DNA of 64,000 nucleotides from Frigoribacterium endophyticum (GTDB lineage: Bacteria > Actinomycetota > Actinomycetes > Actinomycetales > Microbacteriaceae). Below are positions 37,502 through 53,786 of this stretch, piece after piece. The notes beneath the pieces are model-generated. The model was not told the DNA's origin. It saw nothing but the letters and a program-made list of their open reading frames with translations, and searched no databases. How positions within the stretch are numbered: position 1 is the first letter of the stretch; every line of letters begins with the position of its first letter. The position numbers were made by a program, and so were the translations under genes. Location of the stretch: contig NZ_JAAOYV010000001.1 of the NCBI RefSeq assembly GCF_011759585.1, forward strand, positions 868,001 through 932,000. The letters are read 5' to 3'.

Positions 37502-38047
37502 ATGGCCCACGACGATCCGTCCCGATGCTCGTCCCGTGACGACGACACCGTGGTGACTCCGCTCGCGCCGCCCCCGGGGCGGGCCGTGCCCCGGGACCTC
37601 GACGACACCGTCGTGCGGCCCCGCGGCGCCCGGCCGGGCGGAGGCCAGCCGGGCACCGCGCCTGCGCGGCCCGCCCGTCGGCGTCACGGCGTCCGCGTGG
37701 GTGCCGCGGTCCACTGGCTCGACCGCCCGGTGCTCGTGGGGCGGCGACCGGCCGCGCCCCGGGTGGTCAGGGGCGCCGAGCCGCTGCTCGTCGCGGTGCC
37801 CTCGGCGGGCGGTGAGGTCTCGGCGTCGCACGTGTCGTTCGACCAGCAGGGCGACGTGGTCGTCGTGACCGACCTGCGCTCGACGAACGGCACGGTCGTG
37901 GTGCTGCCGGGCCGTGTTCCCGTCCGACTCCGGCAGGGCGAGTCGGTCGTGGCCCTCGCAGGGACCATAGTGGACATCGGCGACGGCGTCCTCCTCGAGG
38001 TCCTCCCGCCTCAGCGCATCCCCCTCCAGGAAGATCCCCTCCCGTGA
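37502..38047 (+). CDS. FHA domain protein
   Basis: A 181-residue protein with a disordered N-terminal tail of about 65 residues and a C-terminal forkhead-associated domain (VLVGRRPAAP ... SASHVSFDQQGDVVVVTDLRSTNGTVVV), which binds phosphothreonine. The tail has two copies of an acidic-Thr motif, DDDTVVTP (Thr16) and LDDTVVRPR (Thr36), 20 residues apart, which look like phospho-acceptor sites for a PknB-type kinase. Its stop overlaps the GTG of the PP2C phosphatase, so the two are coupled. ATG 37502 is chosen as the first start giving this tail; ribosome binding is weak (CCGGAGC). Confidence 0.85.
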   Translation: MAHDDPSRCSSRDDDTVVTPLAPPPGRAVPRDLDDTVVRPRGARPGGGQPGTAPARPARRRHGVRVGAAVHWLDRPVLVGRRPAAPRVVRGAEPLLVAVPSAGGEVSASHVSFDQQGDVVVVTDLRSTNGTVVVLPGRVPVRLRQGESVVALAGTIVDIGDGVLLEVLPPQRIPLQEDPLP

Positions 38048-38862
38048 CAGAGCTCGGCAGCCCCGTGACAGACCACCACCTCGCCCTCGAGGGGTCCACC
38101 CTGACCCTCGACTGGGCGGGCGTGACCGACGTGGGCCGTCGACGCGCCCACAACGAGGACAGCTACGTCGCCGAGGCTCCCCTCTTCGTCGTCGCGGACG
38201 GCATGGGCGGGCACAGCGCCGGCGACGTCGCCAGCGATGCCGTCGTGCGGCGGCTGCACGAGGCGGCGACAGCGCCCTTCCTCACCACCGATGCGGTCGA
38301 GGAGGCGCTGCTGCGCGCCACGGAGGAGATCGCGGTCGCGGCGGCCGACACCGAGCTCGGCGTCGGCACGACGGTGACCGGGGCGTTCCTGTCGCTCGAC
38401 GACGACGAGCCGTCGTTCACGGTCTTCAACGTCGGCGACTCCCGCGTGTACCTCCTCGACGCCGGCGTCCTGCGCCAGGTGACCGTCGACCACTCCGTCG
38501 TGCAGGAGATGGTGGACGCCGGGATGCTGCACCCCGACGACGCCGAGTCGCACCCCGACAGCAACGTCATCACGCGTGCCGTGGGCTTCGACGTGGAGCC
38601 CCGACCCGACTACTGGCGCGTGCCCCTCAGGCCCGGCCAGCGCCTCCTCGTCTGCTCCGACGGGCTCACGAAGGAGCTCGACGCCCGTGCCATCGCGACG
38701 ACCCTCGGGGCGGCCGACGACGCCTCCGGGGCGGCCGCGGACCTCGTCGAGCAGGCGGTGGCCGCGGGCGGCCGTGACAACGTGACGGCCGTGGTCGTCG
38801 TCGTGCGGGGCACGCCCCCGGAGGGCGACACCGAGGCGGACGAGACCACGGTCCCTCGCTGA
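38044..38862 (+). CDS. PP2C-type Ser/Thr protein phosphatase
   Basis: A 272-residue soluble metal-dependent phosphatase (PstP/Stp1 type). All metal and phosphate motifs are present: RRRAHNEDSY, VVADGMGGHSAGD, FNVGDSRVYLL, CSDGLT and GGRDNVTAVVV. No membrane segment, unlike mycobacterial PstP. The C-terminus carries another acidic-Thr site, ADETTVPR (Thr268/269). GTG 38044 overlaps the FHA gene stop. A kinase gene follows after 166 nt with its own promoter, so kinase and phosphatase probably form a reversible switch. Confidence 0.93.
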   Translation: MTELGSPVTDHHLALEGSTLTLDWAGVTDVGRRRAHNEDSYVAEAPLFVVADGMGGHSAGDVASDAVVRRLHEAATAPFLTTDAVEEALLRATEEIAVAAADTELGVGTTVTGAFLSLDDDEPSFTVFNVGDSRVYLLDAGVLRQVTVDHSVVQEMVDAGMLHPDDAESHPDSNVITRAVGFDVEPRPDYWRVPLRPGQRLLVCSDGLTKELDARAIATTLGAADDASGAAADLVEQAVAAGGRDNVTAVVVVVRGTPPEGDTEADETTVPR

Positions 38863-38954
38863 CGCCCCTCGGGCGACGAGCCCTCCCCCGAAGTGGGGGG
38901 ACCGGCGTTGTCCCCCGAACGCTCTCGTCGACCCGGTGCCTCGGGGTGCCGACC

Positions 38955-52887: not shown

Positions 52888-52961
52888 GGTCCCTCCCCAG
52901 CTGACGGTGCTCCCGTCCGTCCCCCGGCGTCGGCACGCGTCTCCCGTGGAGGCCGCGCGAC

Positions 52962-53786
52962 GTGGTCTCCTCGAGCATGCCCCCGCTTCCCCGTGCTCCC
53001 CAGGCCCCGGCCCCCGACGTCCCGTCGCCCGGGGAGCCGCGGGCGCCCCGCGCCGCCGTCCGCCGGGACGCCGCCCTGGTCGCCGCCGGGGTGGCAGCGG
53101 TCGTGCTGACCACCGGCGGGCCACGGTCCTGGAGCGTCGCCGTCGCCGCCGCGGCCGCCTCCTGGGTCGGCACGACGGCGGCGAGGGCCCTCCGACGCCG
53201 GAGGCCACGGTCACGTCGAGTCGCGCGGGAGCACGAGGAGGCGGTGGTCGCGGTCACGAGACGGCTCGCGGTCGTGGCCGACGACCTGTCGGCCGAGTTC
53301 CCGAGCTCGGCGGCGCTCGCGGAACTCGTGCGTCGTCGCGGAGGCCTCCGGTCCCTAGCGCCGCGAGGCCCCCGCGGCGCGGCCTGGCTCGTCCTCGGCA
53401 CGGGGGAGGTCGACGTGGGCGCGGCGGTGCTCGGCGACGACCCGGTCACCGCGGGGCGACGTGCCCCGGCCCGGCGGGCCGCGACGATCGCCCGGGGCCC
53501 GCTCTGCGTCGACGCCCGGGGCGGTGTCGACGTCCACGGCCCCGCCGTGCTCGTCCGCGGGGTCGCCGCGGGCCTCCGGCTGCAGCTCCGCGCGCAGGGC
53601 GGCCCGGTCGACGCGGTGGCCGTCGTCGGTGAGGACGCACCGAGCAGGGAGCCGGCCGCGTGCGTGCTGGTCGTCGCGCGGGACGGCACCGCGACGGTGA
53701 CCCGCCGCGACGGGCGTGCGTGCGAGGTGCCCGTCCAGGTCTGGAGCATCTCGGTGCACGACGACGCGGAGCGGGCACGGCCGTGA
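52962..53786 (+). CDS. hypothetical protein resembling the N-terminal half of an FtsK/EccC-type ATPase
   Basis: A 274-residue protein: Pro-rich tail, two closely spaced hydrophobic helices (about 38-75), an Arg-rich helix, and a soluble domain (VVAVTRRLAVVADDL ... GGLRSLAPRGPRGAAWLVLGTGEVDVGAAVL ... GPLCVDARGGVDVHGPAVLVRGVAAGLRLQL). The order of two helices, 'W-LGTG-V' strand and a 'V-GP---RG' segment resembles the region before the motor of actinobacterial FtsK/SpoIIIE (EccC-like) proteins, but no ATPase domain follows: the frame stops and asparaginase lies on the other strand. Either a stand-alone domain or a truncated remnant. The GGAGG site 9 nt upstream supports GTG 52962; ATG 52977 is an alternative. 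Confidence 0.6.
   Translation: MVSSSMPPLPRAPQAPAPDVPSPGEPRAPRAAVRRDAALVAAGVAAVVLTTGGPRSWSVAVAAAAASWVGTTAARALRRRRPRSRRVAREHEEAVVAVTRRLAVVADDLSAEFPSSAALAELVRRRGGLRSLAPRGPRGAAWLVLGTGEVDVGAAVLGDDPVTAGRRAPARRAATIARGPLCVDARGGVDVHGPAVLVRGVAAGLRLQLRAQGGPVDAVAVVGEDAPSREPAACVLVVARDGTATVTRRDGRACEVPVQVWSISVHDDAERARP

Follow-up and report, generated by a model that had tools for sequence, protein, structure and literature searches.

A PFNA-type operon of Frigoribacterium endophyticum with probable ancestry in a type VII-like secretion system

In Bifidobacterium, the PFNA operon consists of pkb2, fn3, aaa_atp, duf58 and tgm, to which prpC, a hypothetical gene and fha can be added (PMC8430577; all papers cited here are cited for the parts of their text that were available). 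Work on B. longum GT15 demonstrated that it functions as an operon, with MoxR as a substrate of Pkb2 (PMC8430577, PMC6803598), and the FN3 protein of Bifidobacterium binds TNF-alpha (PMC8430577). A 2025 review describes PFNA as resembling the mycobacterial moxR operon (PMC12067865). So far, work on PFNA has treated it as a host-signal operon of bifidobacteria, and the trios of MoxR, DUF58 and transglutaminase genes (MoxR Proper subfamily) have no clear job. Here we describe nine genes at positions 37502-53786 of a 64,000-nt stretch (C1:868001-932000, hereafter the window) of the 3.3 Mb genome of Frigoribacterium endophyticum. Judged by gene content and order, this cluster is a PFNA-type operon, the actinobacterial version of the bifidobacterial surface-protein operon. 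A motor and small cargo genes found in many relatives suggest the original purpose of this puzzling operon: with a probability that we put at roughly 0.6, the PFNA-type cluster encodes an envelope machine that arose from a type VII-like secretion system. Should PFNA be a descendant, or still a component, of such a machine, WXG100 export and control of a motor by FHA domains and kinase become testable.

All nine genes lie on the forward strand, as a first-pass annotation of this DNA had reported, and Pfam agrees with its domain names for eight of them. The cluster begins with an FHA-domain protein (FHA1, 37502..38047; ATG at 37502 preferred to GTG at 37307), which has DDTVV-type threonine motifs in its N-terminus, followed by a PP2C phosphatase (38044..38862) and a membrane Ser/Thr kinase (38936..40492) containing the motifs HRDIKPSN and DFG as well as one predicted transmembrane helix. 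The homologue of PFNA fn3 (40489..46320) encodes an FN3/Ig repeat protein with an N-terminal transmembrane segment, eight Big_9 and three fn3 domains in Pfam and, as annotated, 1943 residues counted from the GTG at 40489. Downstream are genes for a MoxR-family AAA+ ATPase (46361..47332; AAA_3), a DUF58 protein (47329..48771), a TgpA-type transglutaminase homologue with an N-terminal membrane domain (TGM, 48768..51134; TgpA_N, Transglut_core and DUF4129), a protein with zinc ribbons and an FHA domain (51148..52887; ATG at 51148 or 51109) and the product of the ninth gene (52962..53786). GTGA overlaps occur at all four annotated junctions (38044, 40489, 47329 and 48768); overlaps of four bases are commonplace in operons of actinobacteria. 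An NCBIfam scan of the window proteins named none above cutoff, except for a tandem-95 repeat domain in the giant protein. The arrangement is not due to chance, because all 12 other genus loci that were retrieved keep the same nine-gene order, and the core is found again in many genera besides. Gene calls in the fetched loci are those of our own caller, which mis-split or missed some genes (e.g. L019, L033, L042-L044, L053, L211, L218).

Like Bifidobacterium PFNA, the window cluster has the five genes for kinase, FN3 protein, MoxR, DUF58 and TGM, arranged in that order along a single strand; it differs in having FHA1 and PP2C upstream of the kinase and the zinc-ribbon/FHA gene and a motor remnant (see below) after the TGM. 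To follow the FN3 protein, we used a profile of its N-terminal, membrane-proximal domain (A1; 15 sequences, one of which, L046, is from family f4). Family f4 is probably Bifidobacteriaceae, judging from phosphoketolase matches and gene order. The A1 domain is common to the window and f4, where it was found in 19 of 25 genomes (best E per genome ≤4.7e-60). The f4 loci resolved by the caller read kinase-FN3-MoxR-DUF58-TGM, several then continuing with PP2C, an unnamed gene and FHA, and they resemble the window in their Cys-less TGM and kinase ectodomain. Across the class, A1 matched 75/394 genomes and 32/122 genera at E ≤1e-6; matches with E <1e-50 lie in long open reading frames (ORFs) of several families, and those with E of about 1e-7 to 1e-18 mostly in shorter proteins. 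From the stronger matches 40 loci were fetched and from the weaker ones 20; MoxR together with TGM was found in 17/20 of the weaker set. In a separate search, TGM was matched in 37/40 relatives. The long FN3 protein occurs, among others, in Agromyces, Microbacterium, Arthrobacter, Pseudarthrobacter, Brachybacterium and Galactobacter, a partial sample because these names come from a contig scan with two general MoxR peptides in which 80 loci were kept among the matches listed.

Kinase, phosphatase and FHA genes accompany the FN3-MoxR-DUF58-TGM core across several families, and the neighbourhood comparison over Actinobacteria that the first-pass annotation had proposed supports one unit. That annotation had also read the cluster as a fusion that places the MoxR module under phospho-control. 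Published phosphorylation of MoxR by Pkb2 in Bifidobacterium (PMC8430577, PMC6803598) favors the control, but the arrangement is that of the known PFNA operon rather than a new fusion, and the link between kinase and MoxR is not new because MoxR is already published as a Pkb2 substrate. A surface stalk, named as the likely output, is not obligatory, since the FN3-type protein of one relative (L092) is only 419 amino acids (aa) long. In three genomes, two FN3 genes of about 2000 aa stand back to back ahead of one MoxR (L058/L059, L064/L065, L066/L067).

The ninth gene had no Pfam match at E 0.1. The "FtsK-like fragment" of the first-pass annotation proved a good description, because a profile of the genus's ninth-gene versions found full FtsK_SpoIIIE proteins located after the TGM in two relatives (L027, L029; E 2.5e-17, 6.4e-17). 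The match spans residues 4-262 of an 881-aa FtsK with Walker A at 324, and residues 44-321 of a 977-aa FtsK with Walker A at 389. The window's version covers the N-terminal and pre-ATPase region and stops before Walker A, so the window cluster has no complete FtsK/SpoIIIE motor. In sister genera, a whole motor occupies the ninth position, preceded by a separate FHA gene in the place of the zinc-ribbon/FHA gene; in Agromyces cerinus, the layout is that of the window but the FtsK is complete (1004 aa). The fragment is present in all 13 genus loci examined, window included (in L019 it was split by the caller), a set that does not include those of G009, G010 and G013. The ninth gene is the membrane part, at the N-terminus, of an EssC/EccC-like type VII motor, an identification that is new as far as our literature searches show, and in our reading the window's genus lost the motor ATPase domains.

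Complete motors adjoin the cluster in many relatives. At first count, a motor lay within three genes after the TGM in 11 of 82 long-FN3 loci (L053 added by hand). The 20-kb stretches cut many operons short, and 20 onward stretches were fetched, 9 of which had a motor (1469-1552 aa). The final tally of the 82 loci was 20 with a motor, 13 with the fragment (the window's genus) and 49 with none seen, the motor-linked loci spanning eight family codes and Agromyces. The motor stands at differing ends of the operon depending on layout: in seven loci (L227-L230, L242, L243, L246) it comes after the kinase and a gene of 231-266 aa, in L231 PP2C and a 246-aa gene, and in L234 an FHA gene. L234 has its motor at a place where none is present in L235 and L238, although the same genes come next in all three, which could reflect loss or gain. 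Downstream follow-up revealed no linked motor in the operons of L232, L233, L235-L241, L244 and L245, some of which have other motors farther away. A gene of 235-246 aa, with an FHA-like IGR stretch by eye, also lies between kinase and FN3 in L028, L038, L084 and L092, and one of similar size between kinase and motor in L227-L230; the two of the 235-246 aa genes that were scanned had no Pfam match.

WXG100 genes often accompany these motors. In L092, the gene for a 1463-aa FHA-FtsK protein lies downstream of the PFNA core, and two WXG100 genes, present twice, come next. This motor, the only one scanned with NCBIfam, matched EssC with 540 bits (E 1e-161; below the cutoff of 778), EccCa with 368 and EccCb with 318; the motors of other relatives were placed by the motor clade described below. 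In fifteen clusters whose motor has an FHA domain, the genes beyond it were inspected (L092, L193-L197, L227-L231, L234, L242, L243, L246), and in 10 of them a WXG100-family gene occurs within two genes after the motor (L092, L193-L197, L228, L230, L242, L246). The Pfam WXG100 cutoff of 27.3 bits was passed in six (L092, L193, L194, L195, L196, L230), met exactly in L242 and missed in L197 (26.8), L246 (24.3) and L228 (21.5), all with E ≤3e-4. WXG100-family genes were located farther off in L227 (26.0 bits) and L231 (56.6), and none was seen in L229, L234 and L243. An EssC/EccC-type motor and WXG100 genes thus occur together in relatives such as L092, L084/L193 and L230. A further order, WXG-type gene, motor, large protein, MoxR, DUF58 and TGM in a row, was found in L105, L106 and L110, the large protein being fn3-like in L106 and L110. 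Linkage of long-FN3 loci to a motor with adjoining WXG100-family genes appears to be new: our literature searches, which mostly did not extend to subscription papers, found no report joining WXG100 or type VII secretion to PFNA or DUF58.

Several relatives also contain longer ORFs with WXG100-like N-termini, which are possible substrates (L110:2265-3971, L197:2102-3265, L204:13817-15106; also in L227, L228 and L246); the one in L110 has a peptidoglycan-binding domain as well. Identical WXG100-type genes stand twice in tandem at L092:15663-17647, L228:8513-9462 and L230:11758-13352.

We analyzed the phylogeny of the motors. In a first tree, from which L055 was left out (no match to the Walker pattern used), 15 linked motors formed one clade (96/93) against five others. 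A larger tree, with L195 representing L073 and L196 representing L069, placed 25 linked motors in one clade against nine others (94/92; present in 96% of bootstrap trees). Outside this clade were the two other motors for type VII secretion systems (T7SSs) of the window genome, Peribacillus EssC, L107, L128, L026, L232, L240 and L244. On the TGM tree, motor linkage occurs in both subclades and at deep positions. The FtsK label required 11 changes in a first, narrower count, at least 8 of them forced by starred branches, and 19 changes when motor and fragment were pooled and rows without downstream follow-up were counted as motor-less. Because the motors form one clade and their linkage is deep and scattered on the TGM tree, these results fit a common ancestor that had the motor, WXG100, the FN3 propeller, MoxR, DUF58 and an already dead TGM, with many lines later losing the motor; repeated acquisition of the motor could also produce the 49/82 long clusters without a seen motor and the 19 label changes.

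The membrane partners of known T7SSs (EccB with EccD, or YukC) did not emerge as partners of the cluster. In the 14 genomes searched, EccB was found in 4, EccD in 7 (4 over cutoff) and YukC in none; all three were undetected in G180, G254, G315, G220, G021, G023 and G358, of which the first four carry linked motors. Of the genomes behind L227-L246, this search covered G358 and G411. In the EccB/EccD search, 14 control genomes gave no match, and the positive controls were matches in other genomes only. In G411, a motor-less PFNA cluster is directly followed by a different T7SS locus, which has matches to EccB and EccD (C2:706797-709371) and another motor (L232, G411:C2:704000-723999).

The TGM of the window is a pseudoenzyme, as the first-pass annotation had recognized: in the transglutaminase core (50217..50516), the catalytic Cys is replaced by Gly (GDGEQYA) and His by Thr (VTAWIEV), while Asp is kept. 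At the aligned position, Cys was kept in 0/72 TGMs of long-FN3 clusters, 0/10 of short-FN3 clusters and 0/3 with an upstream motor, and all 12 TGMs of f4 have Ser instead; His was also lost in 48 of the 72. In contrast, trios in which the caller detected no FN3 gene mostly keep the Cys (38/52). Of the 14 Cys-less trios in that set, 11 have FN3-profile matches or an FN3 gene that is split, cut by a contig end, displaced, reoriented or too weak for the caller. No FN3 gene was seen in Cys-less L121, yet its TGM falls inside the FN3-linked clade. In a quick tree of 140 rows, from which seven near-copies from the window's genus had been removed, 100 rows made up a single clade (98*) that took in the FN3-linked TGMs, and the Cys-bearing TGMs fell outside it. 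The last two of the 14 Cys-less trios, L174 and L178 from Chloroflexi, have Ser for the catalytic Cys and also lie outside this clade. A motor within four genes was found in 0/38 Cys-bearing and 17/99 Cys-less trios, loci that are not independent of one another; in one of the 17, L026, the motor is on the opposite strand and outside the linked clade.

The ratio of nonsynonymous to synonymous substitution (dN/dS) was 0.12-0.28 for TGM (8 pairs), 0.01-0.08 for MoxR, 0.29-0.46 for the zinc-ribbon/FHA gene and 0.38-0.65 for the motor fragment. The TGM therefore appears to be constrained as a non-enzyme, because it is still under purifying selection. The loss of Cys across FN3-linked TGMs and their single clade are new as far as literature searches show. 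Cross-linking or peptidase chemistry by these TGMs is unlikely because their clade lacks the catalytic Cys, and we dropped active cross-linking as a role, Cys being lost and His mostly lost. The description of TGM as an enzyme in the available text of PMC8430577 would need correcting.

Among the signalling parts, HRD and DFG motifs were present in all 24 kinases inspected, which came from chosen loci; each of these kinases also has one predicted transmembrane helix and a short ectodomain. In the window, the ectodomain (40220..40489), in which two Cys are kept in most relatives (20-sequence alignment), was modelled as a single FN3 fold (pLDDT 93.6), and its Foldseek matches were FN3 domains (E about 3e-4). 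In the FHA domain of the motors, GR and SxxH were kept in 20/20 examined; the Asn of S[AS]NG was kept in 17, with His in 3. Acidic-Thr motifs were enriched in FHA proteins (116 observed vs 40.5 expected), which is weak support because the motif was picked after the window had been seen. Observed and expected numbers were 59 and 47.5 for DUF58, 33 and 29.2 for kinase, 32 and 34.1 for MoxR, 160 and 183.6 for FN3, 37 and 58.5 for TGM, and 6 and 22.9 for PP2C; a docking-threonine motif common to kinase, PP2C and FHA proteins was dropped, since enrichment was clear in FHA proteins only. The membrane-proximal A1 domain of the window's FN3 protein (40633..41511) was modelled as a propeller (pLDDT 84.3), with a YVTN propeller (E 3.8e-11, TM-score 0.40) and BamB (E about 1e-8, TM-score about 0.5) as best PDB matches in Foldseek. 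MoxR thus lies beside a propeller-like protein, as in MoxR-vWA-beta-propeller ternary conflict systems. Membership in these systems was dropped: AAA_3 fits the window's MoxR (P0005) far better (208 bits) than bpMoxR (35.8 bits; cutoff 27), and the term DUF58 is absent from the main text of the paper describing them (PMC7159879).

Type VIIb systems consist of EssC, EssB/YukC, EsaA and WXG100 proteins. Relatives of the window share with them an FHA-bearing EssC-like motor and WXG100 proteins, the PFNA kinase shares the layout of YukC (kinase fold, transmembrane helix and ectodomain), and both have an extracellular stalk protein. In Bacillus, YukC does not bind ATP and the phosphothreonine-binding residues of the YukB FHA domain are not conserved, although YukC still binds the FHA region (PMC9600267). 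PFNA kinases, in contrast, keep their catalytic motifs, and the FHA domain of linked motors keeps its phosphothreonine-binding residues. Other differences are the lack of YukC in the 14 genomes searched and of motor ATPase and WXG100 genes in the window cluster itself; the two WXG100 matches of the genome are on contig C2, whereas the window is on C1. Compared with the trios, which share the order of their three genes with the window, the window TGM belongs to the FN3-linked clade, outside which the Cys-bearing TGMs fall.

We propose the following model for the envelope machine. The FN3 protein would consist of a propeller anchored in the membrane and an Ig/FN3 stalk of sufficient length to span the wall, the pseudo-TGM its membrane partner, and MoxR with DUF58 a chaperone that assembles or switches the two. 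The kinase would sense the outside via its FN3 ectodomain and, together with PP2C, set threonine phosphorylation, which the FHA proteins would read. In motor-bearing relatives, the FHA domain on the EssC-like motor may be gated likewise, with WXG100 proteins as cargo. In the window's genus, the motor lacks its ATPase domains, and the cluster would therefore be a phospho-controlled surface complex or use a motor borrowed from a separate T7SS locus. A stronger version, which we regard as possible but tentative, holds PFNA and its relatives to be a third type VII secretion architecture, of which many lineages, including bifidobacteria, would have retained the surface complex after losing the motor. 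The active kinase with its FN3 ectodomain would then replace the EssB pseudokinase, the phosphothreonine-competent FHA domain on the motor would make export phospho-gated, the propeller/Ig stalk would replace EsaA, and the dead transglutaminase with MoxR-DUF58 would replace the EccB/D/E membrane parts.

The proposal of a machine derived from a type VII-like system builds on the homology of the parts, their order, the motor clade, the Cys-less TGM clade and the WXG100 genes adjoining motors in many relatives, all of which are evident in the compared sequences. Because no motor was seen in 49/82 loci, we infer the secretion role rather than read it from gene content. These motor-less loci, 11 of which were followed downstream and the rest to the end of the fetched stretch, weigh against the proposal, as do the 5/15 clusters without a WXG100-family gene within two genes past the FHA-bearing motor and the short-type WXG proteins, which score under the Pfam cutoff (two scanned from L105, L106 and L110). 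In the window's own branch, the search found no FHA domain in intact FtsK and no WXG100 gene after FtsK in 3/3 loci checked (L200-L202), and the motor fragment evolves fast and may be decaying. Modular shuffling, by which T7SS genes would have been inserted next to PFNA clusters on several occasions while PFNA works by itself as an adhesion and sensing operon, would account for the motor-less loci, the 19 label changes (11 in the narrower count) and the variable position of the motor. The single clade of 25 linked motors, their linkage at deep positions in both TGM subclades and the difference between Cys-bearing and Cys-less trios argue against it, and we consider it unlikely.

A host-interaction operon, in which FN3 binds host cytokines and adheres to the epithelium and the kinase senses the host, is somewhat less likely still. 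It agrees with the published TNF-alpha binding and phosphorylation of MoxR by Pkb2 in Bifidobacterium (PMC8430577), but the same core occurs in Arthrobacter, Pseudarthrobacter, Microbacterium, Agromyces and Brachybacterium. These genera are largely not gut commensals, so that host sensing was hardly the original role. Wall remodelling is close to what the first-pass annotation had suggested, a machine that assembles or remodels the repeat protein or the wall; in this form, TGM would modify the repeat protein or peptidoglycan. The Transglut_core fold and the giant extracytoplasmic protein are in keeping with it, whereas the loss of Cys in every FN3-linked TGM counted above, and of His in most, makes such chemistry improbable, and we give this explanation the least credence. 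We think that the type VII link, which the first-pass annotation did not note, explains the cluster better than wall remodelling.

Just past the window end (C1 about 932-934 kb, L226) is a second MoxR-DUF58 pair, with no TGM called. The window genome also has two separate T7SS-like loci with FtsK motors, at C2:826000-846000 (L224) and C2:1284000-1304000 (L225), with a WXG100 match at C2:838575 and an EccD-like match under the cutoff at C2:1293401.

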